64,000 nucleotides of DNA, taken from positions 1 through 64,000 of IMG/VR virus record IMGVR_UViG_3300042567_000628, one strand, 5' to 3'. Both the position numbers and the translations under genes were made by a program. Positions 3,040 through 45,804 of the stretch are shown here, one piece after another. This stretch comes from a virus. Within the stretch, counting starts at the first letter, position 1. Every line of letters starts with the position of its first letter. The notes below the pieces were generated by a model. The model saw nothing but the letters and a program-made list of their open reading frames with translations. It had not been told where the DNA came from and made no database searches.

Positions 3040-4118
3040 TGGCAAAAGCATTTGATATCAGTAAATTTAGAAAGTCAATTACCAAGTCTATCGACGGACT
3101 GAGTATTGGTTTTAATGACCCAACTGACTGGGTTAGCACAAACAACTACGCATTAAACTATTTGATCAGCGGATATTTCGATCGTGGTATTCCGTTAGGT
3201 AAGGTAACAGTATTTGCTGGTGAATCTGGTGCAGGTAAGAGTTTTATCTGTTCAGGTAACCTAGTCAAGAATGCACAAGCACAGGGCATTTATCCTATCT
3301 TGATTGATACAGAAAATGCACTTGACGAAAAGTGGCTACACGCTCTCGGTGTTGACACAAGTCCAGATAAGTTGTTGAAACTTAATATGGCCATGATCGA
3401 TGATGTGGCAAAGACCATTACAGAATTTATTGCAGAATACAAAACAATGGATGAAGCAGATCGACCTAAGATATTGTTCATCATAGATTCATTGGGCATG
3501 TTGTTGACTCCTACTGATGTTAATCAATTTCAAGCAGGTGATATGAAAGGTGACATGGGTCGCAAGCCTAAGGCGCTAACCGCACTTGTTCGTAACTGTG
3601 TCAATATGTTCGGTAGCTACAATATTGGCATGGTATGTACTAATCACACCTACGCCAGTCAAGACATGTTTGATCCAGATGACAAGATTTCGGGCGGTCA
3701 AGGTTTCATCTACGCCAGCTCTATCGTTGTTGCTATGCGTAAATTAAAATTAAAACTTGATGCAGATGGTAATAAGACTACAACTGTACAAGGTATTCGT
3801 GCAGCCTGTAAGATTATGAAAACTCGTTATGCAAAACCGTTTGAAAGTGTACAGGTTGAGATTCCTTATGAAACAGGTATGAGTCCATATAGTGGATTGG
3901 TCGATCTGTTCGAAGCAAAAGGCATGCTCAAGAAAGAAGGAAACAGTCTTGTATACACTACCAAAGATGGTGAGATTATCAAGCAGTTCCGCAAGGCCTG
4001 GGAACGCAACGAGAAAGACGGACTAGACATTGCAATGGCTGACATTTCAAAACACGGTGAAATTTCCACTTCTGAGATAACTACTACAGTTGAATCAGAC
4101 TTGGAGGTCACCGAATGA
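3039..4118 (+). CDS. uvsX: RecA-like recombinase UvsX
   Basis: 359 residues. UvsX is the T4-type RecA/RAD51 strand-exchange ATPase that loads on gp32-coated ssDNA. Walker A is GESGAGKS (61-68) and Walker B ILFIID (145-150). The IPLGKVTVFAGESGAGKS and CTNHTYASQDMFDP blocks are typical of T4-like UvsX proteins. The C-terminus is acidic. The gene overlaps its neighbours on both sides and lies beside gp32 and a UvsY-like gene, giving the full T4 strand-exchange set. Confidence 0.93.
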   Translation: MAKAFDISKFRKSITKSIDGLSIGFNDPTDWVSTNNYALNYLISGYFDRGIPLGKVTVFAGESGAGKSFICSGNLVKNAQAQGIYPILIDTENALDEKWLHALGVDTSPDKLLKLNMAMIDDVAKTITEFIAEYKTMDEADRPKILFIIDSLGMLLTPTDVNQFQAGDMKGDMGRKPKALTALVRNCVNMFGSYNIGMVCTNHTYASQDMFDPDDKISGGQGFIYASSIVVAMRKLKLKLDADGNKTTTVQGIRAACKIMKTRYAKPFESVQVEIPYETGMSPYSGLVDLFEAKGMLKKEGNSLVYTTKDGEIIKQFRKAWERNEKDGLDIAMADISKHGEISTSEITTTVESDLEVTE

Positions 4119-5772: not shown

Positions 5773-6455
5773 TTCCAAAAATAATACATCATGTTTGGCC
5801 AGGTGATGATCCTTTTAGAGAAAAGTTTCATGCTTGGAGAGAAAGTTGGATGCGACTGCACCCAGACTGGACTTTTTATTTTTGGAGAACTTCTAATCTA
5901 CCTGAAAATATAAATTCTTTGGCAAAACAAATATTGTTAAATCCATCGTATGCAATCACTCCTAAATCCGATGTACTGAGATTTGAAGTATTACGAATAT
6001 ACGGAGGAATTTATGTCGACACTGATATGGAATGTCTACGTCCGTTTGACGAATTTTTAAATCTTGATATGTTCACTGGATTTGAAGATGATTATAGAAG
6101 AGTATGCCCAAGTTTAATAGGCTGTGTTTCGGATCACCATCTGTTAACTGAAATGTCTAACGTTAGTGTTTCTAGAGCAATAAAATATGGACCTGAAGTT
6201 TCTAACGAAAGACCTCATGTTATCACTAGCGTAAAACCTTTTACAAAAATAATGCAAAAATACTTTAATGACGAGGATTTTGCACAAAGAAAAGTTGAAG
6301 ACGAAAAAGTTAAAATATTTTCTAAAGATTATTTTTACCCTGTATATTTTAACGAAAAGCATCGCCTTACCGAAGAAGCTCCAAATTCTTATGCCAAGCA
6401 CCATTGGACAGGCAACGATCCCGATGGATGGACAAAAAATCCTAAGTTTCTGTAG
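5769..6455 (+). CDS. Glycosyltransferase, GT32/OCH1-like sugar-binding DXD type
   Basis: 228 residues. Opens with IPKIIHHVWPG and carries GGIYVDTDMEC, the DXD nucleotide-sugar/metal site of the Gly_transf_sug (GT32) family, plus the ending HHWTGNDPDGWTK. Starts with an ATGA overlap on the epimerase, so the two are co-translated. It meets the opposing gene at 6442 in a 14-base convergent overlap. Confidence 0.8.
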   Translation: MIPKIIHHVWPGDDPFREKFHAWRESWMRLHPDWTFYFWRTSNLPENINSLAKQILLNPSYAITPKSDVLRFEVLRIYGGIYVDTDMECLRPFDEFLNLDMFTGFEDDYRRVCPSLIGCVSDHHLLTEMSNVSVSRAIKYGPEVSNERPHVITSVKPFTKIMQKYFNDEDFAQRKVEDEKVKIFSKDYFYPVYFNEKHRLTEEAPNSYAKHHWTGNDPDGWTKNPKFL

Positions 6456-7221
6456 TCCAGTATGGAAATTTAAAAATTACATCGGATACTGGCTTAGGAT
6501 ATTTGTAATCCACATATTGTGTTTCGCATTTGTGATTAATAGCTAATTTAGTATCTTGTTTTTTAAGTGCATCGAGTACTTCGTTCGGATCTCGATACTG
6601 CGATTCTATACAACTTTCAACTTTACTTTTTATTCGATTGTCGTTGCCAATCCATGTCCAGTGCCAGCCTACTATATCGGGATGTCTAACACAATGACTT
6701 CTATTTTTTTTCTTGTATTGATCACCCTTGTATAATTCTTGAGGAGTGTTGAACATGCATTTTTTAGCAACAACTGGTCCACTCCATGTCCTGTATAATT
6801 TTTGATCAAATTTAAAGATGAACATATCTAACGTGCAATTTACTGGTTTATTTTCTTTTTCTAATAAATCTAAAATAGACTGTATCTTTTCAGGGTCTAA
6901 TATTTCATCTAGATCTGAGTGAATTACAGTATCGTTTGCATCACATAGGTCAATTCCAGATTGCAAAGATGCTCTACTAAAATTTTCGCATTTCCAATCT
7001 TTGTAATCGGCCGGAATATCTAAATTTATTAACTGTATTTTGTTATTGTATTTTTGTTGATATTCGTCTATTCTAGCAGCCAAGTGGTACGGTTTTTCTT
7101 TCCCGCTCCATGTCCGATTGCCTTCTAAAATAATCCACTTATCTACATAGTTGTTTGAAATGTCTAATCTGATATCTAACATTTCAAACTCGTCGTTAAA
7201 CATAAAAGTATCAATAATCAT
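6442..7221 (-). CDS. Glycosyltransferase family 17-like
   Basis: 259 residues. MIIDTFMFNDEFEMLDIRLD, LEGNRTWSGKEKP and HSDLDEILDP are hallmark blocks of GT17 (bisecting N-acetylglucosaminyltransferase-like proteins, also found in bacteria and phages). The DLDE motif is the probable metal/nucleotide-sugar site. Lies two bases after the methyltransferase gene upstream on this strand, so the two form an operon. Confidence 0.8.
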   Translation of the reverse strand: MIIDTFMFNDEFEMLDIRLDISNNYVDKWIILEGNRTWSGKEKPYHLAARIDEYQQKYNNKIQLINLDIPADYKDWKCENFSRASLQSGIDLCDANDTVIHSDLDEILDPEKIQSILDLLEKENKPVNCTLDMFIFKFDQKLYRTWSGPVVAKKCMFNTPQELYKGDQYKKKNRSHCVRHPDIVGWHWTWIGNDNRIKSKVESCIESQYRDPNEVLDALKKQDTKLAINHKCETQYVDYKYPKPVSDVIFKFPYWTTET

Positions 7222-9806: not shown

Positions 9807-10570
9807 AAACAATAGTAATTGCAACAGGTGGTTTTGACCCTATTCATTCAGGTCATATTAACTATATCAAAGAGGCTAAAAAATTAGGCGATGTTTTAAT
9901 CATAGGAGCAAACTCCGATGCCTGGTTGCGCCGCAAGAAAGGGCAAGAGTTTATGCCATGGGACGAACGTGCTAGTATTCTAAGTGCTATCAAAGATGTA
10001 GATCGTGTTATTAACTTTGACGACGCAGACGGTAGTGCAAAAGACGCTATTAGAAAAGTAAGATCAATATACCCCAACGATAAAATTGTATTCGCCAACG
10101 GCGGTGATCGTACTAAAACTAATATTCCTGAAATGGATGTACTAGACGAAATGTTGCATTTAGAATTTGTTTTTGGTGTAGGCGGTGAACACAAAATGAA
10201 TTCCAGTTCGTGGATATTACAAGAATGGAAAGCGCCTAAGACTGAACGACAGTGGGGCTACTATCGTGTACTGCATGAAGTTCCTGGAATGAAAGTTAAA
10301 GAGCTCACTGTGGAGCCCGGAAAGAGCCTAAGTATGCAACGCCACCAACTACGTGCTGAGTATTGGATGGTTAGTGAAGGCCAGTGTATAGTTAACAGCA
10401 TGATGCCTAACGGGTATCGATTGCTACCTGCAGAATTAATTAAGCACCAAGAATATAAAATTCCGGTTGCCGAGTGGCATCAATTAACAAACCCTTATGA
10501 TGTACCTTGCAAGATTGTCGAAATACAATACGGGCAAAGCTGTATTGAAGAGGACATTGAAAGAGTATGA
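9803..10570 (+). CDS. Fusion: cytidylyltransferase-like plus mannose-6-phosphate isomerase-type cupin
   Basis: 255 residues in two domains. Residues 1 to about 125 are a nucleotidylyltransferase of the HldE-C/TagD type (GGFDPIHSGH at 9-18, IGANSDAWLRRKKG, FANGGDR). Residues about 130-250 are a cupin like the C-terminal domain of ManC/type II mannose-6-phosphate isomerase (RQWGYYRVL, LSMQRHQLRAEYW, EWHQLTNP). The pair would activate a sugar phosphate and isomerise or bind a sugar. ATGA overlap couples it to the preceding gene. Confidence 0.8.
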   Translation: MKTIVIATGGFDPIHSGHINYIKEAKKLGDVLIIGANSDAWLRRKKGQEFMPWDERASILSAIKDVDRVINFDDADGSAKDAIRKVRSIYPNDKIVFANGGDRTKTNIPEMDVLDEMLHLEFVFGVGGEHKMNSSSWILQEWKAPKTERQWGYYRVLHEVPGMKVKELTVEPGKSLSMQRHQLRAEYWMVSEGQCIVNSMMPNGYRLLPAELIKHQEYKIPVAEWHQLTNPYDVPCKIVEIQYGQSCIEEDIERV

Positions 10571-36694: not shown

Positions 36695-36720
36695 TTAGTG
36701 TCCTTTGTGTGTATGTAGTA

Positions 36721-36749
36721 ATTATACGGCAGTTTGGCTAATGTGTCAA
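36721..36749 (-). promoter_or_regulatory. Early sigma70-type promoter
   Basis: TTGACA, 17 bases with TAGCCAAA, TATAAT. Drives the genes at 36503, 36273 and 36086. Confidence 0.9.
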
Positions 36750-36752
36750 CCA

Positions 36753-37070
36753 TTATTTGGCAATACGCACGATCAAGCCCTGTGGCGTAGCTGCCACATT
36801 GTAGCCATTGCTTTCGAATAACTCAACGACCTCTTTAGCCATACGATCTCTAGCTCTAGCACCTTCTGCTTTGACTGCTATGAACTTCTTGCGATAGTTG
36901 ATGTAGAGACTTTTGTAGCTGAACGCTGAATCAAGTAGGTCTCTTACTGAGAGAGCCTTGCGGATCTGATCTTGTGAATAGGTGCTCTTGTTGTTTGAGT
37001 TTTGACGCTGTGCATCCATTGCGGCTGCAAATGCAAACCCGCCTGCGTCTTTAGTATCTAGTTCTTTCAT
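36753..37070 (-). CDS. Unrecognised small early protein
   Basis: 105 residues from the ATG at 37070, set by AGGAGCGAGTA. Helical and basic (YKSLYINYRKKFIAVKAEGARARDRMAKEVVELF), ending in GLIVRIAK. No family assigned; may bind nucleic acid. Confidence 0.8.
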   Translation of the reverse strand: MKELDTKDAGGFAFAAAMDAQRQNSNNKSTYSQDQIRKALSVRDLLDSAFSYKSLYINYRKKFIAVKAEGARARDRMAKEVVELFESNGYNVAATPQGLIVRIAK

Positions 37071-37099
37071 TACTCGCTCCTGTTTGTGTGTATGTGTCA

Positions 37100-37128
37100 A
37101 TTATACTGCCAAAAAGCCTCGGTGTCAA
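37100..37128 (-). promoter_or_regulatory. Early sigma70-type promoter
   Basis: TTGACA, 17 bases with TTTTTGGC, TATAAT; leader of about 24 bases. Confidence 0.9.
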
Positions 37129-37190
37129 CCTACGAAGTGCCCAGGCGTGTTGCAGGGTCTAGTGGTAGGCTGACACTTTGGCAACCCCTA

Positions 37191-37739
37191 TTAAGCCGCT
37201 TGTCTAGCCATATGGATCATTTCAACGCGGCCCATGTATGCGGTATTTACAACGCAGGGCTGAGTCTTAGAAGCAATCAGTGTACCTGAATTCTCTGTAA
37301 GATGAATCTCTGTTACACGGCAGGTGAAAGGATACAGTTTTTTGGTCTCGCGATAGTCTTCAGCGGCCATCTCTTTCTCACGTGGCAAATATTCATACAC
37401 ACGCAGTTTGACCTTGCGCTCTTGTCCGTTAGGAAAGGCACTGGCAAATCCAGGGCCACGAGCACGTCTACGCACTGGATCTTTTGCGCCATCATTCTGT
37501 TCAAGTACCAAACGATTAAACGCATCGTGATCTGGAATGCCAGCTTCAACCATCGCAGCCTTGTCTTCTAGCATCTTGATGTAGTTGAGGAATCGTTTGG
37601 CTTTGACTTTGCCACCTGCGCCGTTGACATTATAGGTCTTGCCATCAATTAACCATTCAGCCACAAAGGTCTTATATGGACGGGCATCGCGAAACAGTTC
37701 TTTAGCTTTGGCCAATGTCATAATAGGATGTGTTTTCAT
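37191..37739 (-). CDS. Unrecognised early protein
   Basis: 182 residues. RPYKTFVAEWLIDGKTYNVNGAGG, a basic Arg-rich middle (DPVRRRARGPGF) and a beta-rich end (CRVTEIHLTENSGTLIASK). No recognised family. Own promoter; single-gene unit. Confidence 0.8.
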   Translation of the reverse strand: MKTHPIMTLAKAKELFRDARPYKTFVAEWLIDGKTYNVNGAGGKVKAKRFLNYIKMLEDKAAMVEAGIPDHDAFNRLVLEQNDGAKDPVRRRARGPGFASAFPNGQERKVKLRVYEYLPREKEMAAEDYRETKKLYPFTCRVTEIHLTENSGTLIASKTQPCVVNTAYMGRVEMIHMARQAA

Positions 37740-37771
37740 CTTGCTCTTTCTGTGTGTTTGTGTATGTGTTA

Positions 37772-37800
37772 ATTATAACAGGGTTTTGGCACCCTGTCAA
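37772..37800 (-). promoter_or_regulatory. Early sigma70-type promoter with inverted repeat in spacer
   Basis: TTGACA, 17 bases, TATAAT. The span includes CAGGGT-TTTGGC-ACCCTG on the plus strand, a 6-bp hairpin that may also end the upstream transcript. Confidence 0.9.
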
Positions 37801-37805
37801 CCAAA

Positions 37806-38189
37806 TTAGATCCAGCTGTCTACCATCATAACGGGCTTCTTCAAGACCCGTTTAACAAAGTCCTCGGGCTCGTCGTCAGCACGTACTAACATAAAGCCCA
37901 TGCTCTCTACCAGGTCTACCTCGCAGATCTGGAGGTCCACACCTGCCTTCTCAAATGCAATGTTCATCTTGGTCAGGGCATACTTAACGCCTGCTTCAAA
38001 TGTCTGGTATTCGCCGTCATGGACTTCATCGTAGTCAAACTCTTTAAGCATGACCTCTGCGTACTCTTCACCGTCTGCTACGATGAAAGGGCGGATCTTC
38101 TTCCAGGCCCGTTGATCGGTACAGTCAAAGTGGTCACAGGCTTCGTTGAGGTCAAACGAGGCAAATGCGTCATAATTTACTTTAGTCAT
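37806..38189 (-). CDS. Unrecognised acidic early protein
   Basis: 127 residues from the ATG at 38189, set by AGGAGCGAACCC. Strongly acidic (FDYDEVHDGEYQTFEAGVKYAL). No motif. Ends 6 bases before the next promoter. Confidence 0.8.
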   Translation of the reverse strand: MTKVNYDAFASFDLNEACDHFDCTDQRAWKKIRPFIVADGEEYAEVMLKEFDYDEVHDGEYQTFEAGVKYALTKMNIAFEKAGVDLQICEVDLVESMGFMLVRADDEPEDFVKRVLKKPVMMVDSWI

Positions 38190-38223
38190 TGGGTTCGCTC
38201 CTAATGTTTGTTTGTATGTGTCT

Positions 38224-38252
38224 ATTATACAACTAATTTGGCTAGTTGTCAA
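38224..38252 (-). promoter_or_regulatory. Early sigma70-type promoter with inverted repeat in spacer
   Basis: TTGACA, 17 bases with TAGCCAAA, TATAAT. CAACTA and TAGTTG flank the motif as a 6-bp hairpin. Confidence 0.9.
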
Positions 38253-38587
38253 CCTAGTTATGAACAGTTAGAAAAGAATTAAAGGAACCATTGTCAACTC
38301 TCTGTCTCTACCCTAACCAACGTCTAGCTAGGGCCGTGACGGTCATTACTTCCTACAGTGCCCGCCAGCTTCAGCTTTCGCTTTGCCTTCATATACTTAG
38401 ATTGAGCGTGAGCGGCCTCACTGTCCTCGCCTTAAGTACCTAACGGTGTAGGTAACCTCTAACTCTTTTCTAACTGTTCTGCTTAGGCCGAGTCTCTAAA
38501 CTCGCTTCGTATCCTTTAGTTACAACCCTTTTTGCATTTCTGCTGGGTTCTTACATTTGAGGATCGCCTTGCTTTTTCTTTCTTCTT
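38253..38587 (-). ncRNA. Candidate structured non-coding RNA
   Basis: A consensus early promoter (38594-38622) reads into about 330 bases with no plausible gene; the longest ATG frame is 22 codons without a ribosome site. On the minus strand the segment 38481-38467 (AACAGTTAGAAAAGA) is perfectly complementary to 38279-38265 (TCTTTTCTAACTGTT), a 15-bp closing helix around about 190 bases. Local hairpins are visible: AACCC...GGGTT with an inner GCA-GAAA-TGC, CGAGT-TTAGAG-ACTCG, TACCTA-CACCGT-TAGGTA, GTGAG-GCCG-CTCAC and CCCTA...TAGGG. Not a match to tmRNA, RNase P or group I introns by eye. Confidence 0.6.
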
Positions 38588-38593
38588 GTTTCT

Positions 38594-38622
38594 ATTATAA
38601 CGAACTTCCACCAATCTGTCAA
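38594..38622 (-). promoter_or_regulatory. Early sigma70-type promoter of the candidate ncRNA
   Basis: TTGACA, 17 bases with ATTGG, TATAAT on the minus strand. Confidence 0.9.
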
Positions 38623-38641
38623 CCAAAATGCCGTTGTATTT

Positions 38642-39046
38642 TTACAACTCTATTGCCCTACGGAACACAATCTCCTGCTTGGCAAAGGCCTGGATTTCCC
38701 AGGGTTGATCAAGGTAAGGATGATTCCTCTTGTACAGCCGGCCCTTCCACATGGTGCCCTTGGCCGTAGGCTTCAAATGACCCTTGGCAAACTGCGCCAC
38801 GTGGGTCAACTCGTGTGCCAGTGTGACGCCCAATGTGACCCAGTTGCGATTGGGCTTGAGCACCACAAGGAATGTGTCTATACCTGTTAGAGGAATGGTT
38901 GTGCCCATCTCTTCTAGTTCTGGATCCACCTTGATCACCAACAGTTTGCGGCTACGATTCAAGCCCAATTGTGTCAGCATGGAGGGCATGACCGATTCAA
39001 TATAACGGCGGGTCTTGGCGCCAGCTTCAATGTGATATTCCATCAT
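38642..39046 (-). CDS. SprT-like zinc metallopeptidase
   Basis: 134 residues. LGVTLAHELTHVAQF has the HExxH zinc site (78-82) in the SprT/Spartan-like setting; a third ligand is probably in the C-terminal WEIQAFAKQE helix. Such proteins in phages are of unknown substrate; Spartan relatives cleave DNA-bound proteins. The ATG at 39046 follows the stop of the membrane peptide by one base. Confidence 0.75.
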   Translation of the reverse strand: MMEYHIEAGAKTRRYIESVMPSMLTQLGLNRSRKLLVIKVDPELEEMGTTIPLTGIDTFLVVLKPNRNWVTLGVTLAHELTHVAQFAKGHLKPTAKGTMWKGRLYKRNHPYLDQPWEIQAFAKQEIVFRRAIEL

Positions 39047-39047
39047 G

Positions 39048-39158
39048 TTATCCAAAAAGCACAGTGCCTACACCTGCGGTCCATAACAGCAGAGCCTGTG
39101 CAATGCCAAAGTGGAACAAGAACCATGTAACAGCGATCCAACCTACGAGTTTAACCAT
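39048..39158 (-). CDS. 36-residue membrane peptide
   Basis: MVKLVGWIAVTWFLFHFGIA then a second hydrophobic stretch: one long or two short membrane segments. AGGAGCTGGCA precedes the ATG, and it is first behind an early promoter, so it is very likely translated. Confidence 0.75.
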   Translation of the reverse strand: MVKLVGWIAVTWFLFHFGIAQALLLWTAGVGTVLFG

Positions 39159-39185
39159 TGCCAGCTCCTTTGTTGCTATGTGTTA

Positions 39186-39214
39186 ATTATAGTCTCATTC
39201 ACCCAAACTGTCAA
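39186..39214 (-). promoter_or_regulatory. Early sigma70-type promoter
   Basis: TTGACA, 17 bases with TTTGG, TATAAT. Its -35 lies inside the end of the upstream gene. Confidence 0.9.
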
Positions 39215-39425
39215 CCGATTCATAGTCTTTAACCATACGGTACAAAGGGTCTATGATCTCTTCGTGCTCTAGCTCGTAGTCCCTAGTTGCCCAATCCACC
39301 CACTCTTCGGAGTGGACTTCCACTAGGCCGTCGTTTAACATCTCGCGGGCCTGTGCTTCTGTTTCACATTCAACCACGTAGAGTTCCGATACGATGGCAT
39401 TACGCCAAAAGGTAAACCGCTTCAT
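39195..39425 (-). CDS. Unrecognised acidic early protein
   Basis: 76 residues; ELYVVECETEAQAREMLNDGLVEV reads as a small alpha/beta unit, with an acidic C-terminus. Third gene of the unit starting at 40117. Confidence 0.75.
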   Translation of the reverse strand: MKRFTFWRNAIVSELYVVECETEAQAREMLNDGLVEVHSEEWVDWATRDYELEHEEIIDPLYRMVKDYESVDSLGE

Positions 39426-39443
39426 TTGCCTGACAGCATTCTG

Positions 39444-39767
39444 TCAACTATGGCTTGCCAGGTGTTTGCAGGCACCTCGAAATTGGAACCCTGGACAGGT
39501 ACAGGTTTTTGCTTCTGGATCGACGGTGTATTCTTTGCCATTGGAGCCTTTGATAGTGATTAGATTACTTGGTGTCTTGACCTTAAACGGGTTAGGAGTT
39601 ATACTCTCAAACTTCCTGCCTCGCTTGTCGAAACCCTTGATACCATTCTTGAAATAGTAAGGCTCCGATGTTCCGGTCTTTATGTATGCTACCAGTTTGT
39701 TTCCATCTAGTAGGTATATGTGCGGGGGGAACTGCCCCCCGGTTGTTTCTCGGAGGGCTTCCATCAA
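39444..39767 (-). CDS. SWIM-type zinc-finger protein
   Basis: 107 residues. The C-terminus KTCTCPGFQFRGACKH gives C-x-C-x8-C-x-H (Cys89, Cys91, Cys100, His102), the SWIM zinc motif found in DNA/protein-binding factors. Residues 15-80 are beta-rich. ATGA overlap with the upstream gene. Confidence 0.75.
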   Translation of the reverse strand: MMEALRETTGGQFPPHIYLLDGNKLVAYIKTGTSEPYYFKNGIKGFDKRGRKFESITPNPFKVKTPSNLITIKGSNGKEYTVDPEAKTCTCPGFQFRGACKHLASHS

Positions 39768-40117
39768 TCCAACCTGCTTCCAGCGTAGACCTTGTCCAAG
39801 CCCAACTTGGTCTTCAGCACCTCTGCGTAGGCCTCAGCACCTGCTTCCAGAACGCTGATGCTCTGCACACCTGCTTGGCTTGGATTCCAAAGTTGGAGAC
39901 TGCCTGTGTAGGATTTGCGGAAGCCAGCGGCCTGCAACCACTTGCCCAGCTTGGAGTTAGAACGGACACCGTAGACATCCACCCAAGCAAAGCCACAAGC
40001 ATCACGATCGCCATGCTTCTGCAGGAATGCCTTAGCGGCTGTACGAGCCTGCATACCAGCTTCGTTGGTTGCGTCCTGTACTGCCTGCTCTGTGATCACT
40101 GTTGCGATTGCATTCAT
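39764..40117 (-). CDS. Unrecognised early protein
   Basis: 117 residues from the ATG at 40117, set by AGGAGCTGAATA. ACGFAWVDVYGVRSNSKLGKWLQAAGFRKSY is a distinctive block; the pattern suggests a nucleic-acid-binding alpha/beta protein. No family named. Confidence 0.8.
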   Translation of the reverse strand: MNAIATVITEQAVQDATNEAGMQARTAAKAFLQKHGDRDACGFAWVDVYGVRSNSKLGKWLQAAGFRKSYTGSLQLWNPSQAGVQSISVLEAGAEAYAEVLKTKLGLDKVYAGSRLD

Positions 40118-40149
40118 ATTCAGCTCCTGTTTAGTGTGTGTAAGCATTA

Positions 40150-40178
40150 ATTATAGCGCCATTCGTCCAATCTGTCAA
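40150..40178 (-). promoter_or_regulatory. Early sigma70-type promoter
   Basis: TTGACA, 17 bases with ATTGG, TATAAT. Confidence 0.9.
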
Positions 40179-40405
40179 CCAACAGCTTTCAATAACCCTA
40201 CAATGCCTATGGCTAATGAAATCACATTAACCATCAGTTGTGGGCGGTTCTTGACACGGAAGGCCCAGGTTAGGAACAGTACTGTTCCCACAGCGAACAC
40301 AATAATATTGTAGGGATATGCCGCAGGACCCACAGCATTGAGAATGTGCCCTAGCACTATGGCTACAGCACCCGTCCATTGTAGAATGTCATTTGTTTTG
40401 TTCAT
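40175..40405 (-). CDS. Small membrane protein with about three helices
   Basis: 76 residues from the ATG at 40405. Three hydrophobic stretches with a conserved-looking ILNAVGPAAYPYNIIVF and KNRPQL loop, somewhat like short SWEET/PQ-loop half-transporters. ATG is 6 bases after the -10 box with no ribosome site, so leaderless. Confidence 0.75.
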   Translation of the reverse strand: MNKTNDILQWTGAVAIVLGHILNAVGPAAYPYNIIVFAVGTVLFLTWAFRVKNRPQLMVNVISLAIGIVGLLKAVG

Positions 40406-40411
40406 GTGTGT

Positions 40412-40440
40412 ATTATAACACTGAACTGCCAATCTGTCAA
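40412..40440 (-). promoter_or_regulatory. Early sigma70-type promoter, leaderless
   Basis: TTGACA, 17 bases with ATTGGC, TATAAT, then ACACAC and ATG at 40405. Confidence 0.9.
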
Positions 40441-40451
40441 CCAAATGCCCT

Positions 40452-40838
40452 TTAGGTTCTAGGGCTTTCCTTTAGGAATTGCGCACCATGCTCTTCTGAT
40501 AGTACAATGGTAAAGTCCTTGTGGAAGCGATCACTCAAGCAGGCTAGAACGGCTTCACGGTTTGCTCCTTGACATAGGAACTCCATGGTATCCAAACGGT
40601 ACACATACAGTTGATCATTCACCTTCTCAACCCGGACTTCTATACGGGGCATTGCATCCTCGTGGTCTTCAGGCAGATCCTTCTGCAGATCCTGCATCAT
40701 GTTGCGCATGTCTGAGTCTTTGACCTTGAGTTTGATCAGGATGTCTTTGAACATAGTGACATGGATGTGTTCGGCTACCTTGAAGCCCAAAAAGCCTCCC
40801 AAGGCCGCGCCCAACACGAAGTCTAGCCATTCCATCAT
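40452..40838 (-). CDS. Membrane-anchored early protein
   Basis: 128 residues. Residues 5-22 (LDFVLGAALGGFLGFKVA) are a glycine-rich membrane helix; a helical linker and a soluble alpha/beta C-terminal domain follow. ATGA overlap with the upstream gene. Unknown function. Confidence 0.75.
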   Translation of the reverse strand: MMEWLDFVLGAALGGFLGFKVAEHIHVTMFKDILIKLKVKDSDMRNMMQDLQKDLPEDHEDAMPRIEVRVEKVNDQLYVYRLDTMEFLCQGANREAVLACLSDRFHKDFTIVLSEEHGAQFLKESPRT

Positions 40839-41161
40839 TTTCTCCTGGGTTTGGTCAATGCGGCTGCTTCTTTGCGCAGAGCACCGGCTTTCTTGTAGAG
40901 AACGCCGGCCTGTTCGTCAAGACTCTTTGATCGCTCAGTGGCCAACTTTCCGCCACCAAACTCACGGTCGATATAGTATTGGATGAGATTGTTCTTGATC
41001 ATGGAGATCAAGTCACCGCCATTGTCTTCTGGACAGATGAAGCGGACTGGGCAACGGCCCCAACTGCTGTGTTCCACGAACTCTGCGTAATAGCGACGAT
41101 GATCTTTGTTATGTGCATCAAAGGCCACCAAGGGCCTGCAATAGTATTCTAATTTGCTCAT
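40835..41161 (-). CDS. Unrecognised basic early protein
   Basis: 108 residues from the ATG at 41161, 8 bases after the previous stop. HSSWGRCPVRFICPEDNGGDLISMIKNNLIQYYI, then a Lys/Ala-rich helical tail. No family assigned. Confidence 0.75.
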   Translation of the reverse strand: MSKLEYYCRPLVAFDAHNKDHRRYYAEFVEHSSWGRCPVRFICPEDNGGDLISMIKNNLIQYYIDREFGGGKLATERSKSLDEQAGVLYKKAGALRKEAAALTKPRRK

Positions 41162-41169
41162 GTGTTTAT

Positions 41170-41460
41170 TTACGCAAATTCTCGGTCTTCGATTTTGGTT
41201 AACATGTTCGCAGGTACTCGCCATGCACCCTGCGCAGTCTTGACGGTAACGAACTTGATAGCGATCTTAGTGACAACACCTGTCACGTTCCGACCTAACT
41301 TGCTAGATGTGAAGTTGACGTTATCGCCTACTCGCAAGCTGGCTTTGGTCAGTTTGGCGATAGTTGCCCGCTTCCACTTAACTGCATCGATCACTGACAT
41401 CAACTCGTCGTTGGTCAAGTCACTGAACATGATCGCTTGATTGATCTGTTTGATATCCAT
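41170..41460 (-). CDS. KOW/SH3-like small protein
   Basis: 96 residues. Helical N-terminus (LTNDELMSVIDAVKWKRATIAKL), then LRVGDNVNFTSSKLGRNVTGVVTKIAIKFVTV, a five-strand barrel pattern typical of KOW/SH3-like domains in phage proteins. Possibly binds RNA or RNA polymerase partners; inferred. Confidence 0.75.
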   Translation of the reverse strand: MDIKQINQAIMFSDLTNDELMSVIDAVKWKRATIAKLTKASLRVGDNVNFTSSKLGRNVTGVVTKIAIKFVTVKTAQGAWRVPANMLTKIEDREFA

Positions 41461-41490
41461 TGTCTGCTCCTAATGTGTTAGTGTAAATGT

Positions 41491-41519
41491 ATTATAACAT
41501 GCTTTTGGCTAGGTGTCAA
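41491..41519 (-). promoter_or_regulatory. Early sigma70-type promoter
   Basis: TTGACA, 17 bases with TAGCCAAA, TATAAT. Confidence 0.9.
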
Positions 41520-41529
41520 CCGCCGTTGG

Positions 41530-41549
41530 GCAGCGGGGCCTACGCCCCT
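41530..41549. repeat. GCAGCGGGGCC repeat, copy 1, within a hairpin
   Basis: GCAGCGGGGCCTA followed by CGCCCC, so GGGGC can pair with GCCCC. One of six copies between 41.5 and 55.3 kb. Confidence 0.7.
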
Positions 41550-41554
41550 ACAGG

Positions 41555-41710
41555 TTAGTCTACGTAGTAGTCAACCGCTTGCACTAGCATGTTAAGCGGA
41601 CTTTCCATATCCCCAAAGCATTCTAGCTCTGCTAGTTGCTCCCCGTCACAGCTTGCCTCTAACAGCATAGCTTCTACTTCCGCTAGCTTTGCAAGTATTG
41701 CTTCTTTCAT
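41555..41710 (-). CDS. 51-residue acidic protein
   Basis: MKEAILAKLAEVEAMLLEAS is a helix, followed by an acidic segment ending in VDYYVD. Good GGAGCAGTAA ribosome site and own promoter. Unknown function. Confidence 0.75.
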   Translation of the reverse strand: MKEAILAKLAEVEAMLLEASCDGEQLAELECFGDMESPLNMLVQAVDYYVD

Positions 41711-41737
41711 TTACTGCTCCTTTGTTGTTAAGTGTTA

Positions 41738-41766
41738 ATTATAGCACACACTGTCCAAAATGTCAA
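41738..41766 (-). promoter_or_regulatory. Early sigma70-type promoter
   Basis: TTGACA, 17 bases with TTTTGGACA, TATAAT. Confidence 0.9.
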
Positions 41767-41781
41767 GTGTGTGCTGTAGTA

Positions 41782-42159
41782 TTACAGCTCCATGCTCGCA
41801 TAGCCGTCGTCTTGCATACCCTGCTCTGTAAACATAACGTCTGTACCTAGCAGTGTGCTAATCGCATCTACAAAGCCGCTGTCTGTATACAGTCTCCAGC
41901 TGCCCTCGTACTCTGCATCGCCGTCTACGTTATAGCACACTGTAATGTGTATGCTACTGTCGCCGTCCAATTCGTCCCACCATTGCTCGTGTATGTGTAC
42001 GCTTGTAACTGTAACTGCCTCAATCTCGCAGTCCCATATGCTGTCGCCTGCTAGTTGCACTTCTATGTTGCAGTCGTATGTTGTGCTAATGCTGTCTTCG
42101 CTAGTGTCTGTAGTTGCCAGTGTCAGCTTGTCGCTAACTTCAAATTGTGTTGCTTGCAT
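41782..42159 (-). CDS. Unrecognised acidic early protein
   Basis: 125 residues, Asp/Glu/Ser-rich and beta-rich (CNIEVQLAGDSIWDCEIEAVTVTSVHIH). It has three Cys and an acidic charge. No motif recognised. Single-gene unit. Confidence 0.75.
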   Translation of the reverse strand: MQATQFEVSDKLTLATTDTSEDSISTTYDCNIEVQLAGDSIWDCEIEAVTVTSVHIHEQWWDELDGDSSIHITVCYNVDGDAEYEGSWRLYTDSGFVDAISTLLGTDVMFTEQGMQDDGYASMEL

Positions 42160-42190
42160 AGTATTCGCTCCTAATGCTGTTTAAAAATGT

Positions 42191-42219
42191 ATTATAGCAC
42201 ACCTTGTCCAAAATGTCAA
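42191..42219 (-). promoter_or_regulatory. Early sigma70-type promoter
   Basis: TTGACA, 17 bases with TTTTGGACA, TATAAT; near copy of the promoter at 41738. Confidence 0.9.
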
Positions 42220-42251
42220 GTGTGTGCGCAATAACCCTATGCGCTGTAGTG

Positions 42252-42395
42252 TTATTGTATAATTGTGTCGTCTAGCGCACAAGCTAACGCATTAAATGCG
42301 TTTTGTATTGCAACATGTTCGTCTAGTTCTGCTTCTTCTAGCACTGTTTGTAACTGTAACATTAAACTGTCTAATTTGCTTTTTGTATTTTGCAT
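42252..42395 (-). CDS. 47-residue helical protein
   Basis: MQNTKSKLDSLMLQLQTVLEEAELDEH is a long amphipathic helix, followed by an Ala-rich segment. AAGGAAAC ribosome site and own promoter. Likely a small coiled-coil protein. Confidence 0.7.
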   Translation of the reverse strand: MQNTKSKLDSLMLQLQTVLEEAELDEHVAIQNAFNALACALDDTIIQ

Positions 42396-42421
42396 TGTGT
42401 TTCCTTTGTTGCTATGTTGTT

Positions 42422-42450
42422 ATTATAGCGCACTTTGTCCAAAATGTCAA
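42422..42450 (-). promoter_or_regulatory. Early sigma70-type promoter
   Basis: TTGACA, 17 bases with TTTTGGACA, TATAAT; third of three near-identical copies. Confidence 0.9.
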
Positions 42451-42474
42451 GTGCGCTATGTATAACCCTACAGT

Positions 42475-42726
42475 TTAGTCAACAAATACAATGTTTGTAG
42501 TACGCAAACTTTGTTGCGCAGAAGCCACAGTGCGTTGCACCTCGTTTTGCAAGTTGTCTGCAAGTAAGTCCCCACTAACATAGTTGCATTTTGCTTGTGT
42601 AGGGAATATATACTTAATCTCGTCCCCCACCATTTTTTTGTGTACATTAAATGCAAACTGTACTTTATATGCTTTTAATTTTTTGTTGTAAACTAGCTTT
42701 GCGTAGGCTATGCAATTTGTAAACAT
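42475..42726 (-). CDS. Unrecognised early protein
   Basis: 83 residues; CIAYAKLVYNKKLKAYKVQFAFNV is beta-rich and basic, then a helical Gln/Ala-rich end. AAAGGACACACA precedes the ATG. Single-gene unit. Confidence 0.75.
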   Translation of the reverse strand: MFTNCIAYAKLVYNKKLKAYKVQFAFNVHKKMVGDEIKYIFPTQAKCNYVSGDLLADNLQNEVQRTVASAQQSLRTTNIVFVD

Positions 42727-42755
42727 TGTGTGTCCTTTTGTGTGTGTAAGCTGTA

Positions 42756-42784
42756 ATTATAACGCACAACGTCCAAATTGTCAA
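42756..42784 (-). promoter_or_regulatory. Early sigma70-type promoter
   Basis: TTGACA, 17 bases with TTTGGAC, TATAAT; directly follows the terminator of the upstream gene. Confidence 0.9.
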
Positions 42785-42786
42785 CC

Positions 42787-42823
42787 AAAAAAAAGCATAA
42801 CCCTACACCTAGCAGGGTTATGC
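42787..42823 (-). terminator. Strong rho-independent terminator
   Basis: GCATAACCCT and AGGGTTATGC form a perfect 10-bp stem, followed on the minus strand by eight T. It ends the unit at 42857 just before the next promoter. Confidence 0.9.
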
Positions 42824-42839
42824 CAAAGTTGCCTCTATA

Positions 42840-42854
42840 CCGGGAGCGAATCGG
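42840..42854. repeat. 15-base repeat, copy 1
   Basis: CCGGGAGCGAATCGG, identical to 49755-49769. Both copies sit just downstream of a minus-strand gene and before a terminator. Confidence 0.8.
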
Positions 42855-42856
42855 TA

Positions 42857-43162
42857 TTAGGCAACAACAGCCGCTGTCTTCGCGACAGGGGCTTTGACCG
42901 CAGCCCGGGGGGCTGGGTTTTTCTTCTCTGCATAGGCAACAGCAGCTTGGATAGCAGCATTGCCTATGCCGAACTGGATAGACTTAAGGTGCTGTACAGC
43001 TTCTGCCTTAGTCATCTCTACTGGCAGCTCAACCAACTCAACGTCAGTGTGGCCGTTCTTTGCCAGGATCTTGATACGCATGGTATCGTTAGCGAAGCGC
43101 AATTTGGTCTTGCCTTCGAGGGTTGAAACACCTGCTACTGCAAATTTCTTATCGGTACTCAT
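42857..43162 (-). CDS. Unrecognised early protein
   Basis: 101 residues: a beta-rich half (GKTKLRFANDTMRIKILAKNGHTDVELVELP), a helix, then an Ala/Pro/Lys tail. AAGGAAGTTAAAA ribosome site. Long leader of about 50 bases. Confidence 0.8.
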   Translation of the reverse strand: MSTDKKFAVAGVSTLEGKTKLRFANDTMRIKILAKNGHTDVELVELPVEMTKAEAVQHLKSIQFGIGNAAIQAAVAYAEKKNPAPRAAVKAPVAKTAAVVA

Positions 43163-43217
43163 TTTTAACTTCCTTCTGTGTGTGTAAAAATCATGCCAAC
43201 CAATTCAGCATGTTATT

Positions 43218-43246
43218 AGTATAGCATCAATATTCGAATTGGTCAA
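43218..43246 (-). promoter_or_regulatory. Early sigma70-type promoter
   Basis: TTGACC, 17 bases, TATACT. Divergent from the array consensus, and its leader is longer. Confidence 0.75.
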
Positions 43247-43437
43247 CTGTTTGGTTTACCAAATTGCGGAACAACTTGAATACTGACGCTTTCCTTCTCG
43301 TCTAAGGCGGCGATGAACTCATCGTCAAAGACCAGATCCTGCATGTTCAAGTCGATCATGTGTTCGACTCGATCCATATCGGGTCTGCCATCGCTGGCAC
43401 ACTCGATTGTGAATTTAAATTCATATTTCCTTGTCAT
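43243..43437 (-). CDS. Unrecognised small acidic protein
   Basis: 64 residues (KYEFKFTIECASDGRPDMDRVEHMIDLN), an alpha/beta unit with an acidic surface. ATGA overlap with the upstream gene. Confidence 0.75.
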   Translation of the reverse strand: MTRKYEFKFTIECASDGRPDMDRVEHMIDLNMQDLVFDDEFIAALDEKESVSIQVVPQFGKPNS

Positions 43438-44048
43438 TTTGTTCCCTCATTGGCTGCAACGCCATCCTTAATCCACTCAGTAAGCTCTTCCTCTTGCTCT
43501 GCTTCGTATTCACGAATGCTTTCTGAGATAGCAAATGCTTCGTCCAGTTCAGGATGATCACGCTCAATGTCGTCGGCACTCATGCCTTCGAGATTGATCT
43601 CTTGATCACCATGCTCATCATAGGCGCCAGCATAGGCCATACCACCTTCGTAATACATGGCGTTGACACCAAAGCCCAACTCCACCAACTTGTCATAGGC
43701 AGCGACTGGAGGGCTCCACGCTGAGTCGAACGATGTGTGTAGCATCTTACCATCAGGGTGGATATCACTCTGACCATCGCCACCTACATCCCACTTGGTG
43801 CCCCATTCACCTACGCAGAAGTCATACCAGTTGCCGTAACCATACTTCTCGCGATTCTCAGCAGTCTTGCGTTCCAATTCTTTCTGCTCGTCACCGTCAC
43901 CTAACGATCCTGCAACGATCTGCAGATCCGTTGGCACCGGAATGAACTCATTGAGGAACTCTCCACGATCAAGTGCTTCTTTAGCACGAAGGATCATTGC
44001 TGGGTCTTCGTGGGTGAGTGTCAGTGTGTTGTTGCACCAATTTGGCAT
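43434..44048 (-). CDS. DUF1281/YubB-type ferredoxin-like protein
   Basis: 204 residues. The opening MPNWCNNTLTL, the aromatic core YGNWYDFCVGEWGTKWD and SFDSAWSPPVAAYDKLVE are hallmarks of the DUF1281/YubB-like family (ferredoxin-like fold) common on plasmids and phages. Molecular function unknown. Very acidic C-terminus. Confidence 0.8.
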   Translation of the reverse strand: MPNWCNNTLTLTHEDPAMILRAKEALDRGEFLNEFIPVPTDLQIVAGSLGDGDEQKELERKTAENREKYGYGNWYDFCVGEWGTKWDVGGDGQSDIHPDGKMLHTSFDSAWSPPVAAYDKLVELGFGVNAMYYEGGMAYAGAYDEHGDQEINLEGMSADDIERDHPELDEAFAISESIREYEAEQEEELTEWIKDGVAANEGTK

Positions 44049-44057
44049 GTCGGCTCC

Positions 44058-44240
44058 TTAAAGATTAACAAATTTCCAGGGGTCTTGCGTAATCGTAGCG
44101 TCCTGGATCTCAACGCTAAGACTGAACTCAAATGTAGTTGCACGAGTAGGATACTCTTTAACCAACTCAGCAGCCAACTTAGAGAGGCTGTCATTACTCA
44201 GCACTGCAATCTCGTTAGCCAATCGTTCAATGTGTGTCAT
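44058..44240 (-). CDS. Unrecognised small protein
   Basis: 60 residues: a helical half (ERLANEIAVLSNDSLSKLAAELVKEYP), then FEFSLSVEIQDATI. Overlaps the start of its neighbour by 14 bases. Unknown. Confidence 0.7.
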   Translation of the reverse strand: MTHIERLANEIAVLSNDSLSKLAAELVKEYPTRATTFEFSLSVEIQDATITQDPWKFVNL

Positions 44241-44520
44241 ATTGATGATCCTTGAAAGTTGAAGTTACTGCATGAACTGCTTGCTTGCTCTTGCCACCGA
44301 TGTGCCAACGATACTGGCCCATTGGGGTTTCGTATTCTTTCCAATCGTATATTGTGGCCACTGTGCCATCTTCAAATTCCAAACACCACTCCACTGTGGT
44401 CTTGTCGCCGCCGCCTTCGGGCTGGCCAAACACTTCTACCAGTTCATGGTAGTAAGCGGTTACATATCCCTGCAGGCTAGTGCCGTTTGCCTCTGTCCAA
44501 TCTGTTTGTGTAAACTTCAT
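44227..44520 (-). CDS. Unrecognised early protein
   Basis: 97 residues; GYVTAYYHELVEVFGQP, KTTVEWCLEFEDGTVATIYDWK and YRWHIGGKSKQAVHAV give a small alpha/beta fold shared by many phage hypotheticals. AGGAGCGAAG ribosome site; first gene of a four-gene unit. Confidence 0.8.
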   Translation of the reverse strand: MKFTQTDWTEANGTSLQGYVTAYYHELVEVFGQPEGGGDKTTVEWCLEFEDGTVATIYDWKEYETPMGQYRWHIGGKSKQAVHAVTSTFKDHQYDTH

Positions 44521-44546
44521 CTTCGCTCCTTTGTGTGTATGTGTTT

Positions 44547-44575
44547 ATTATAGCGCCAAACTGCCAAACTGTCAA
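44547..44575 (-). promoter_or_regulatory. Early sigma70-type promoter
   Basis: TTGACA, 17 bases with TTTGGC, TATAAT. Confidence 0.9.
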
Positions 44576-44580
44576 CCAAT

Positions 44581-44934
44581 TTAAACAATAGCCCTACGGT
44601 GATTAGGGACATAATCACTGTAGATCTTTACAGCATGATTCTTTCTAACCCAGTCTACCAAACTCTGCGGATCGCCGATCATCCAATCTTCTACATCCTT
44701 AAACTCAATGTCGTCCAGGGTGGTGAACATGTAGATTTCATAGGTTCGTTGACTATTGGCCTGTGCCCTCAACTTCATCATTGAAATCTGTCGACCCAAC
44801 GGATTCTCAGTCTTTCTACGGCCACTGAGGATCTCAATCAACTGACCCTTTTCAAAGTTCTCAGGATGAAAGTGGGTGATGTCCTGCAGGGTTTCAAAGC
44901 CGGTGGAGTCCCACGCTGCCAAAATGTATCTCAT
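44581..44934 (-). CDS. Unrecognised early protein
   Basis: 117 residues. Mixed alpha/beta, with RTYEIYMFTTLDDIEFKDVEDWM. ATGA-type overlap with the gene at 44931. No family. Confidence 0.75.
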   Translation of the reverse strand: MRYILAAWDSTGFETLQDITHFHPENFEKGQLIEILSGRRKTENPLGRQISMMKLRAQANSQRTYEIYMFTTLDDIEFKDVEDWMIGDPQSLVDWVRKNHAVKIYSDYVPNHRRAIV

Positions 44935-45137
44935 ACCCCAGCCCTCATAACTTCCATCAAGCGGTTCTGCAAGCGATCCACTTCTGCGTTCTCTACATAG
45001 AAGTCGGTGGTTGGATCCCAGTACTGGCCTGCCTTTGGATCGTAATACAAGACCCGATCAACGAACCAAAACGGTCCTTCCAGCCCCTTGCGTGGTTGCC
45101 ACTTTTCGTCTCTCTTGCCCAGGGTGATGAATGCCAT
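44931..45137 (-). CDS. Unrecognised small protein
   Basis: 68 residues, aromatic and charged (GPFWFVDRVLYYDPKAGQYWDP). AGGAGCGCGAA ribosome site; first of a two-gene unit. Confidence 0.75.
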   Translation of the reverse strand: MAFITLGKRDEKWQPRKGLEGPFWFVDRVLYYDPKAGQYWDPTTDFYVENAEVDRLQNRLMEVMRAGV

Positions 45138-45168
45138 TTCGCGCTCCTTTGTGTTTCAGTATATGTAT

Positions 45169-45197
45169 ATTATACGATCAAAAGCCCAAACTGTCAA
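45169..45197 (-). promoter_or_regulatory. Early sigma70-type promoter
   Basis: TTGACA, 17 bases with TTTGGGC, TATAAT. Confidence 0.9.
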
Positions 45198-45201
45198 CCA
45201 A

Positions 45202-45510
45202 TTACCAGGCAATCTCTTTAGAAGCGTAACGGATGTGACCTTCGTAGTTCAACTGGCTCTGCTCGAACTCTGTGAGAGCATCATCAGCCACGATAGACCA
45301 ATCAATAATGGTCTCGCGGAAGGCATCATTGTCCTGCTCAATCTGACCACGCACACCCATCACAGTCTCCGTGACCTTGTTGATGTTGATGTTCTTGACC
45401 ACGTAGTCTGAACCGCCCTTGGCTTTCCAGTACTGTGGGCACTCACCAACTCCGTCCCAATCGTGGGCACCGTAGTTCTCGTAGACCTGTGTAGTGATTA
45501 AAAGTTTCAA
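45202..45510 (-). CDS. Unrecognised early protein
   Basis: 102 residues. MKLLITTQVYENYGAHDWDG is a distinctive opening seen in phage hypotheticals; then helical and acidic. AAGGAGCGAAAC ribosome site; own promoter. Confidence 0.8.
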   Translation of the reverse strand: MKLLITTQVYENYGAHDWDGVGECPQYWKAKGGSDYVVKNININKVTETVMGVRGQIEQDNDAFRETIIDWSIVADDALTEFEQSQLNYEGHIRYASKEIAW

Positions 45511-45542
45511 GTTTCGCTCCTTGTTTGCTAGTGTATGTGTAT

Positions 45543-45571
45543 ATTATAGCAGGGATTGCTCAAAGTGTCAA
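45543..45571 (-). promoter_or_regulatory. Early sigma70-type promoter
   Basis: TTGACA, 17 bases with TTTGAGC, TATAAT. Confidence 0.9.
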
Positions 45572-45804
45572 CCAATTTCAGTGTTGCAGAATTGCCACAT
45601 CTTTAATTGCTCTCCACGCAGGCCCATTAGGACGCCTTCGTAGTCCCTGTATGAACAGAAGGCCCACTTTCGGTCTGGGCGATACACATAGAAATCATAG
45701 TCCCGCTCAGTGTTGTGCTGAGTGCAGATCCGTTTGGCTGTCGAAGCCAATTTGTAATACTTCTGCATATGACCCGACTTCTCTTCGTATACTATCCAAC
45801 CCAT
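45568..45804 (-). CDS. Unrecognised small protein
   Basis: 78 residues, aromatic and Cys-containing (YDFYVYRPDRKWAFCSYRDYEGVL). TAATG-type overlap with the upstream gene. Unknown. Confidence 0.75.
   Translation of the reverse strand: MGWIVYEEKSGHMQKYYKLASTAKRICTQHNTERDYDFYVYRPDRKWAFCSYRDYEGVLMGLRGEQLKMWQFCNTEIG

Follow-up and report, generated by a model that had tools for sequence, protein, structure and literature searches.

Two conserved structured RNA modules form a gene-free transcript in an uncultured jumbo phage

We found that a perfect sigma70-type promoter in the genome of an uncultured, very large (jumbo) freshwater phage is predicted to drive a transcript that contains no gene and consists of two separable modules in tandem, module A (93 nt) and module B (about 218 nt), both of which are conserved structured RNAs. 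The window, that is, the whole stretch of DNA analysed, covers the first 64.0 kb of a viral record of 70.6 kb. A 353-kb IMG/VR contig contains a region identical to that of the window, which therefore belongs to a jumbo phage. Our best explanation, on which we are evenly divided, is that we are dealing with a non-coding RNA operon of the phage, with A as a cis-acting leader and B as a stable trans-acting RNA.

The promoter (38594..38622, minus strand) has the form TTGACA-17-TATAAT and scores 12/12, as good as the promoters of protein genes, as an earlier note on this DNA had held. That note had also called the transcript gene-free, and this reading stands. Most of the other 12/12 promoters have a start codon and an SD-like site 25–34 nt after the −10 element, whereas the promoter at 38622–38594 is a clear exception: the first start codon with a ribosome site comes only after 404 nt, on the far side of the next promoter (38224..38252, minus strand, 12/12), and is part of the gene that this second promoter serves. 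We place the transcript at 38262..38587 on the minus strand, taking its predicted 5′ end from the promoter and its 3′ end from the terminal helix of B described below. No open frame with a ribosome site was found in this interval, no plausible gene before the 38252–38224 promoter and no terminator between module B and that promoter. The flanking genes on the same strand are P0001 downstream (37806..38189, 127 aa) and P0002 upstream (38642..39055, 137 aa), both of which served as queries to reach relatives. P0002 has an AHELTH zinc-metalloprotease-like motif and falls in PHROG families of unknown function. The surrounding minus-strand region (about 36.7–45.6 kb; 36700–45600) holds more than 12 short genes with AGGAGC-type ribosome sites, nearly all with their own 12/12 sigma70 promoter, a striking one-promoter-per-gene layout.

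The minus-strand RNA folds at −106.5 kcal/mol, compared with −80.8 ± 5.6 kcal/mol for shuffled sequences (z −4.6; none of 100 shuffles was equal), in line with the highly structured RNA proposed earlier. The strand, which had been left unstated, is the minus strand. A plus-strand transcript was rejected, as its fold is poorer (z −2.8) and every conserved feature belongs to the minus strand. That the region encodes a small protein, with the RNA structure incidental, has a negligible probability. Open reading frames of 36–50 aa exist mechanically, but the largest are either encoded on the opposite strand or have no ribosome site, and relatives differ by indels and compensatory helix changes rather than at third codon positions.

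To reach relatives, all of them metagenomic, we searched first with the flanking proteins and then with short sequence patterns of the RNA. Loci were fetched with fixed motifs of 16–21 bases, within which identity is therefore built in; most of the covarying columns fall elsewhere. About 60 IMG/VR stretches carry A and more than 100 carry B, separately and together. Local comparison of these relatives showed that A and B are conserved independently and differ in distribution: A stands alone behind a promoter in L041, L047, L063 and L059, B stands alone in L045 and L046, and the two are fused as in the window in L005, L010 and L035. Thus, the small RNA of about 300 bases suggested by the earlier note is indeed a structured RNA, but one made of two families that are fused here.

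Module B spans 38262..38479 (minus strand) including its terminal helix, and its core (38284..38459) matches covariance model R2 with 135.8 bits (E 4e-36). In the core, two stacked long-range helices close a junction with two variable hairpins, and a 3′ hairpin domain with strong covariation comes next. The long-range double helix pairs UUACCUAC-ACCGUU with GCGGCGGA-GUAGG-GUAA around the two variable hairpins. In an alignment of 26 distinct sequences (A4; 50 pairs), two-sided changes occurred at 30 of the 50 pairs, in 195 cells compared with 58 after shuffling, and the covariation score was 0.46, compared with 0.17 for shuffled data and 0.03–0.10 when partners were slid. An extended set of 99 model matches (82 distinct) gave two-sided changes at 38 pairs (667 cells versus 185), in an alignment that was fitted to the structure and so leans towards it. 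A subclass (L098, L149, L163, L197, L138 and L153) has a different 3′ domain, AATGATGAAGGCAGACG...TAGTCCGGAGTTCC, in place of the usual 3′ hairpin ACCGUGCAGGCC...GCACAAUGG.

The terminal helix of B joins a 5′ arm (38456..38479) to a 3′ arm (38262..38285) in the manner of a leader–trailer helix. The perfect 15-bp helix reported earlier exists, with coordinates shifted by 2–3 bases: 16 bp are perfect (38262–38277 with 38464–38479), and 24 pairs including G–U form in total (38262–38285 with 38456–38479). Taken by itself, the helix is no more than mildly unusual: a perfect repeat of at least 15 bp turned up in 5 of 1,000 dinucleotide shuffles, and 7 of 344 370-nt stretches sampled from the window had one. 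It is covariation, not the helix alone, that makes the case for a structured RNA. Across 85 copies of B, the terminal helix has a median of 24 predicted pairs. It is A/U-rich in the copies within tRNA arrays and of other sequence in the promoter copies, yet paired in both, so that an outer helix of about 20–24 pairs is kept although its sequence is wholly different between the copy classes. Covarying pairs in this helix had been named as the evidence that would support a functional RNA, and the pairing kept through sequence change provides it; observed pairs number 15.4, compared with a maximum of 13.1 in 500 shufflings of the partners.

Module A (38481..38573, minus strand) is a pseudoknotted element that matches model R1 with 119 bits (E 2e-27). 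Its fold has a closing and a second stem, a nested double hairpin whose loop is of the GNRA type, and a 3′ hairpin; a pseudoknot joins the loop of this 3′ hairpin to the strand that precedes it. From pair counts, we place helix P1 at 38566–38569/38485–38488, P2 at 38561–38564/38511–38514, P3 at 38545–38549/38524–38528, P4 with its GAAA loop at 38541–38543/38534–38536, P5 at 38501–38504/38489–38492 and the pseudoknot at 38515–38518/38497–38500. In an alignment of 30 distinct sequences (A1), 98.8% of cells are paired, and two-sided changes occur in 41 cells, compared with 12.9 ± 2.4 in shuffled alignments and 0–1 in slid controls. Six of the seven elements show compensatory changes, the pseudoknot among them; examples are AACCC/GGGUU versus GACCC/GGGUC and CGAG/CUCG versus AGAG/CUCU in the stems and CUAA/UUAG versus CCAA/UUGG in the pseudoknot. 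The sequence is extremely conserved, with a mean column identity of 91%.

B appears to be a regular component of the phages that carry it. Model R2 found it in 28 of 30 large records, many of which had been picked because they bear the motif, and almost always in one copy. Among records selected by protein, B was present once in all eight of at least 280 kb (G001–G005, G007, G023 and G024) and absent from the 223-kb G012; it was found in 6 of 25 shorter, fragmentary ones, as expected for a single locus. One tRNA array contains tandem B copies (L218, 99–279 and 325–510, minus strand), an exception to the single-copy rule. Searches with blastn, using three different B copies and the window region, returned only chance-level matches in about 50,700 GenBank phage records, and at the sensitivity of blastn neither A nor B matched any of 72,500 plasmids. 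The distantly related jumbo phages PA5oct and those of the KVP40 type contain neither module by model search. The commonest 20-nt motif of B has no exact copy in GTDB representative genomes, an exact 21-nt leader string, searched to find the host by its rrn leader, gave no match, and we found no earlier description of A or B in the open-access PMC literature. A phage tmRNA of the betaproteobacterial/permuted type, a gene separate from B, lies at 3466–3806 (minus strand) in L152, about 750 nt downstream of a long B variant; its type hints at a host in the Betaproteobacteria.

Module A always lies just after a promoter and before B, other stem-closed RNAs or open reading frames. By a strict pattern, the −10 element ends 13–25 nt upstream of a conserved GGC in 33 of 36 distinct contexts, and two of the remaining three have a looser promoter. 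What comes after A in these contexts is B in 16, an ORF in 12, another promoter in 5 and something else in 3. Among 11 further A stretches, three (L251, L256 and L260) have a boxA-like leader and a divergent B behind A. With L133, these are the loci in which A adjoins a boxA-like leader of B; they broke the rule, which had held in 85 copies, that A and boxA are mutually exclusive. A smaller stem-closed RNA comes after A at other loci (L252, L254 and L257; also L092, L111 and L112). This third RNA, about 90–100 nt with a long closing helix (for example, ACATAGATAAACACACT ... AGTGTGTTTTTCTATGG), occurs behind A or before tRNAs (L111 and L092, after A; L112, L252, L254 and L257) and may represent one or several further RNA families. 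In no record did we find more than one copy of A, and we therefore rejected the idea that A is a generic leader repeated before many genes of one genome.

These contexts bear on two other readings of A. In the first, A and B are independent trans-acting small RNAs with their own promoters, and A, having no terminator, runs on. We think this unlikely, but it stays a serious rival because A is single-copy. A moves between unrelated neighbours, and its extreme sequence conservation would also suit a trans-acting RNA. On the other hand, A has no U-tailed terminator, occurs also inside boxA-type leaders and, in unrelated contexts, is followed within about 10–30 nt by a ribosome site, a processing stem or a promoter, as a leader would be. 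In the second, A is a ligand- or protein-sensing, riboswitch-like cis-regulator of the genes behind it, which we hold to be improbable. Its compact pseudoknotted fold, very high conservation and presence in the 5′ UTRs of at least eight different ORFs fit such a role. However, no expression platform is seen, the linker to the ribosome site (23–30 nt on, where an ORF comes after A) is short and, by eye, unstructured, the majority of A contexts continue with untranslated RNA or a promoter, and the genes behind A share no visible function. A leads transcripts that are mostly untranslated and may adjoin a boxA-like element, which argues for a cis-acting element of elongation or stability over a translational switch.

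Module B occurs in two settings. In the first, it has its own sigma70 promoter, whose −35 element most often starts 59 nt before a conserved GGTTACC, so that transcription would begin at the terminal helix; in a variant of this setting, seen in the window, A is inserted between promoter and B. In the second, B is part of a tRNA array and is preceded by one promoter, at about −118, or often by two, the other at about −216. Among 85 distinct B copies, 43 have tRNAs within 400 nt, although the window has none so near, and about a quarter of copies have their own promoter away from tRNAs. A boxA-like element, GTTC(T/A)TTAAAA, was found in 28 of 73 B flanks, compared with 0.34 expected over all 73, and in most of these 28 copies it stands between −61 and −70 relative to the B motif. 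In front of it there is often a small hairpin (by eye; for example, CTAGTTAGGAAATTAACTAG), which recalls boxB. The window copy of B has no boxA-like element before it, and module A stands in that place.

The layout of the array copies is the order of the E. coli rrn leader. In E. coli rrn operons, promoter P2 is followed by boxB–boxA–boxC and a leader–trailer helix, of which more than 17 bp are needed, and tRNAs are co-transcribed (PMC10250234). Array copies of B likewise lie behind tandem promoters about 97 bp apart, with the boxA-like GTTCTTTAAAA about 65 nt before B, a helix of 20–24 bp closing it and tRNA-Asp, -Glu or -Tyr coming after it. Unlike in an rRNA operon, the RNA enclosed by the helix is about 180 nt and has no rRNA similarity by Rfam, and B of the window has module A instead of boxA. 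Many copies of B lack both A and a boxA-like element, a point against our best explanation.

We propose that B, transcribed from one copy per jumbo-phage genome, would be cut out of its precursor within or beside its terminal helix, much as happens to pre-rRNA at its leader–trailer helix. RNase III may make this cut; the helix is long enough for the enzyme. Where B lies in a tRNA array, it would be trimmed by tRNA processing as well. The freed B would then act in trans as a stable structured RNA. Roughly half of the B copies are found with phage tRNAs and an rRNA-like leader, so the most economical guess, and no more than a guess, is that B serves translation or host takeover. For A, which would act in cis at transcript 5′ ends, the most likely role is to modify the elongating host RNA polymerase so that the untranslated RNA is fully transcribed, in a put-like or boxA-like manner; alternatively, A may protect the 5′ end of the transcript. 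Untranslated RNA is a natural target of Rho. In reporters, boxA prevents Rho-type termination of untranslated RNA (PMC4807359). Antitermination by A is opposed by the finding that the element also stands in front of ORFs, and even of another promoter, where there seems to be less need for it; moreover, the A+B transcript contains no intrinsic terminator for A to suppress; Rho sites are not readable here.

A more far-reaching version of the operon proposal, to which we give only a small probability, is that jumbo phages carry a mini rRNA-like operon. The host pre-rRNA machinery (the Nus/boxA complex, RNase III and the leader–trailer helix) would make, chaperone and excise B, B would engage ribosomal proteins or ribosomes and redirect translation, and A would have evolved in phages as an RNA stand-in for boxA, the antitermination signal. 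In a whole group of uncultured jumbo phages, B looks to be carried by almost every member, and in a single copy, as would be expected of an important component. The likeness of its setting to an rRNA operon suggests in specific, testable terms how B is made, and it opens a way to ask why so much translation-related RNA is found in huge phages.

The covariation in relatives gives strong support to the earlier proposal of a functional structured RNA outside any known class. At the gathering threshold, Rfam 15 has no family over A or B in the window and 14 relatives, and permissive E-values up to 10 added only one chance match on the wrong strand. Models of rRNA (16S, 23S and 5S), tmRNA, RNase P RNA, 6S RNA and pRNA gave no match over either module. 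The two RNAs, with structures supported by covariation, have nothing alike in Rfam 15, the GenBank phage records or the plasmids searched. The phi29-type pRNA is a single phage RNA of roughly 170–220 nt with a multi-helix junction, and in that it is like B. B differs in having no Rfam match and in its early-gene or tRNA-array context, and no packaging gene was seen beside it.

For A, a point of comparison is put of phage HK022, which brings about protein-independent antitermination by binding RNA polymerase. Like put, A is a compact, structured RNA right after a phage sigma70 promoter, a likeness of position only (PMC9378689). The sequences are unrelated, and instead of put's two stem-loops in about 70 nt, A has 93 nt with a closing stem, nested hairpins and a covarying pseudoknot. 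A put-like role is also opposed by copy number, as put occurs twice per HK022 genome and A at most once.

For B, the nearest likeness is to GOLLD and ROOL, RNAs that phages encode close to tRNA islands and that assemble into cages (PMC12286853). Like them, B is phage-encoded, structured and frequently within tRNA arrays. That B is itself an RNA nanocage or scaffold of this sort seems to us a slim prospect: it is 3–4 times shorter and shares no Rfam match with either. B further differs from them in being unrelated by covariance-model search, in usually occurring once per jumbo phage and, for about a quarter of copies, in having its own promoter away from tRNAs. The sole GOLLD match (RF02032) among our loci, at 10468–10931 of L208, lies in the same tRNA array as a separate B (6291–6489), so that B stands beside GOLLD and not in its place. 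This GOLLD has a tRNA gene inside it. In another phage tRNA array, a sub-threshold match to selenocysteine tRNA was seen (L204, 1476–1562, minus strand; 40.7 bits, gathering threshold 47). A and B are new as RNA families; as a phenomenon, they have their nearest precedents in GOLLD and ROOL.
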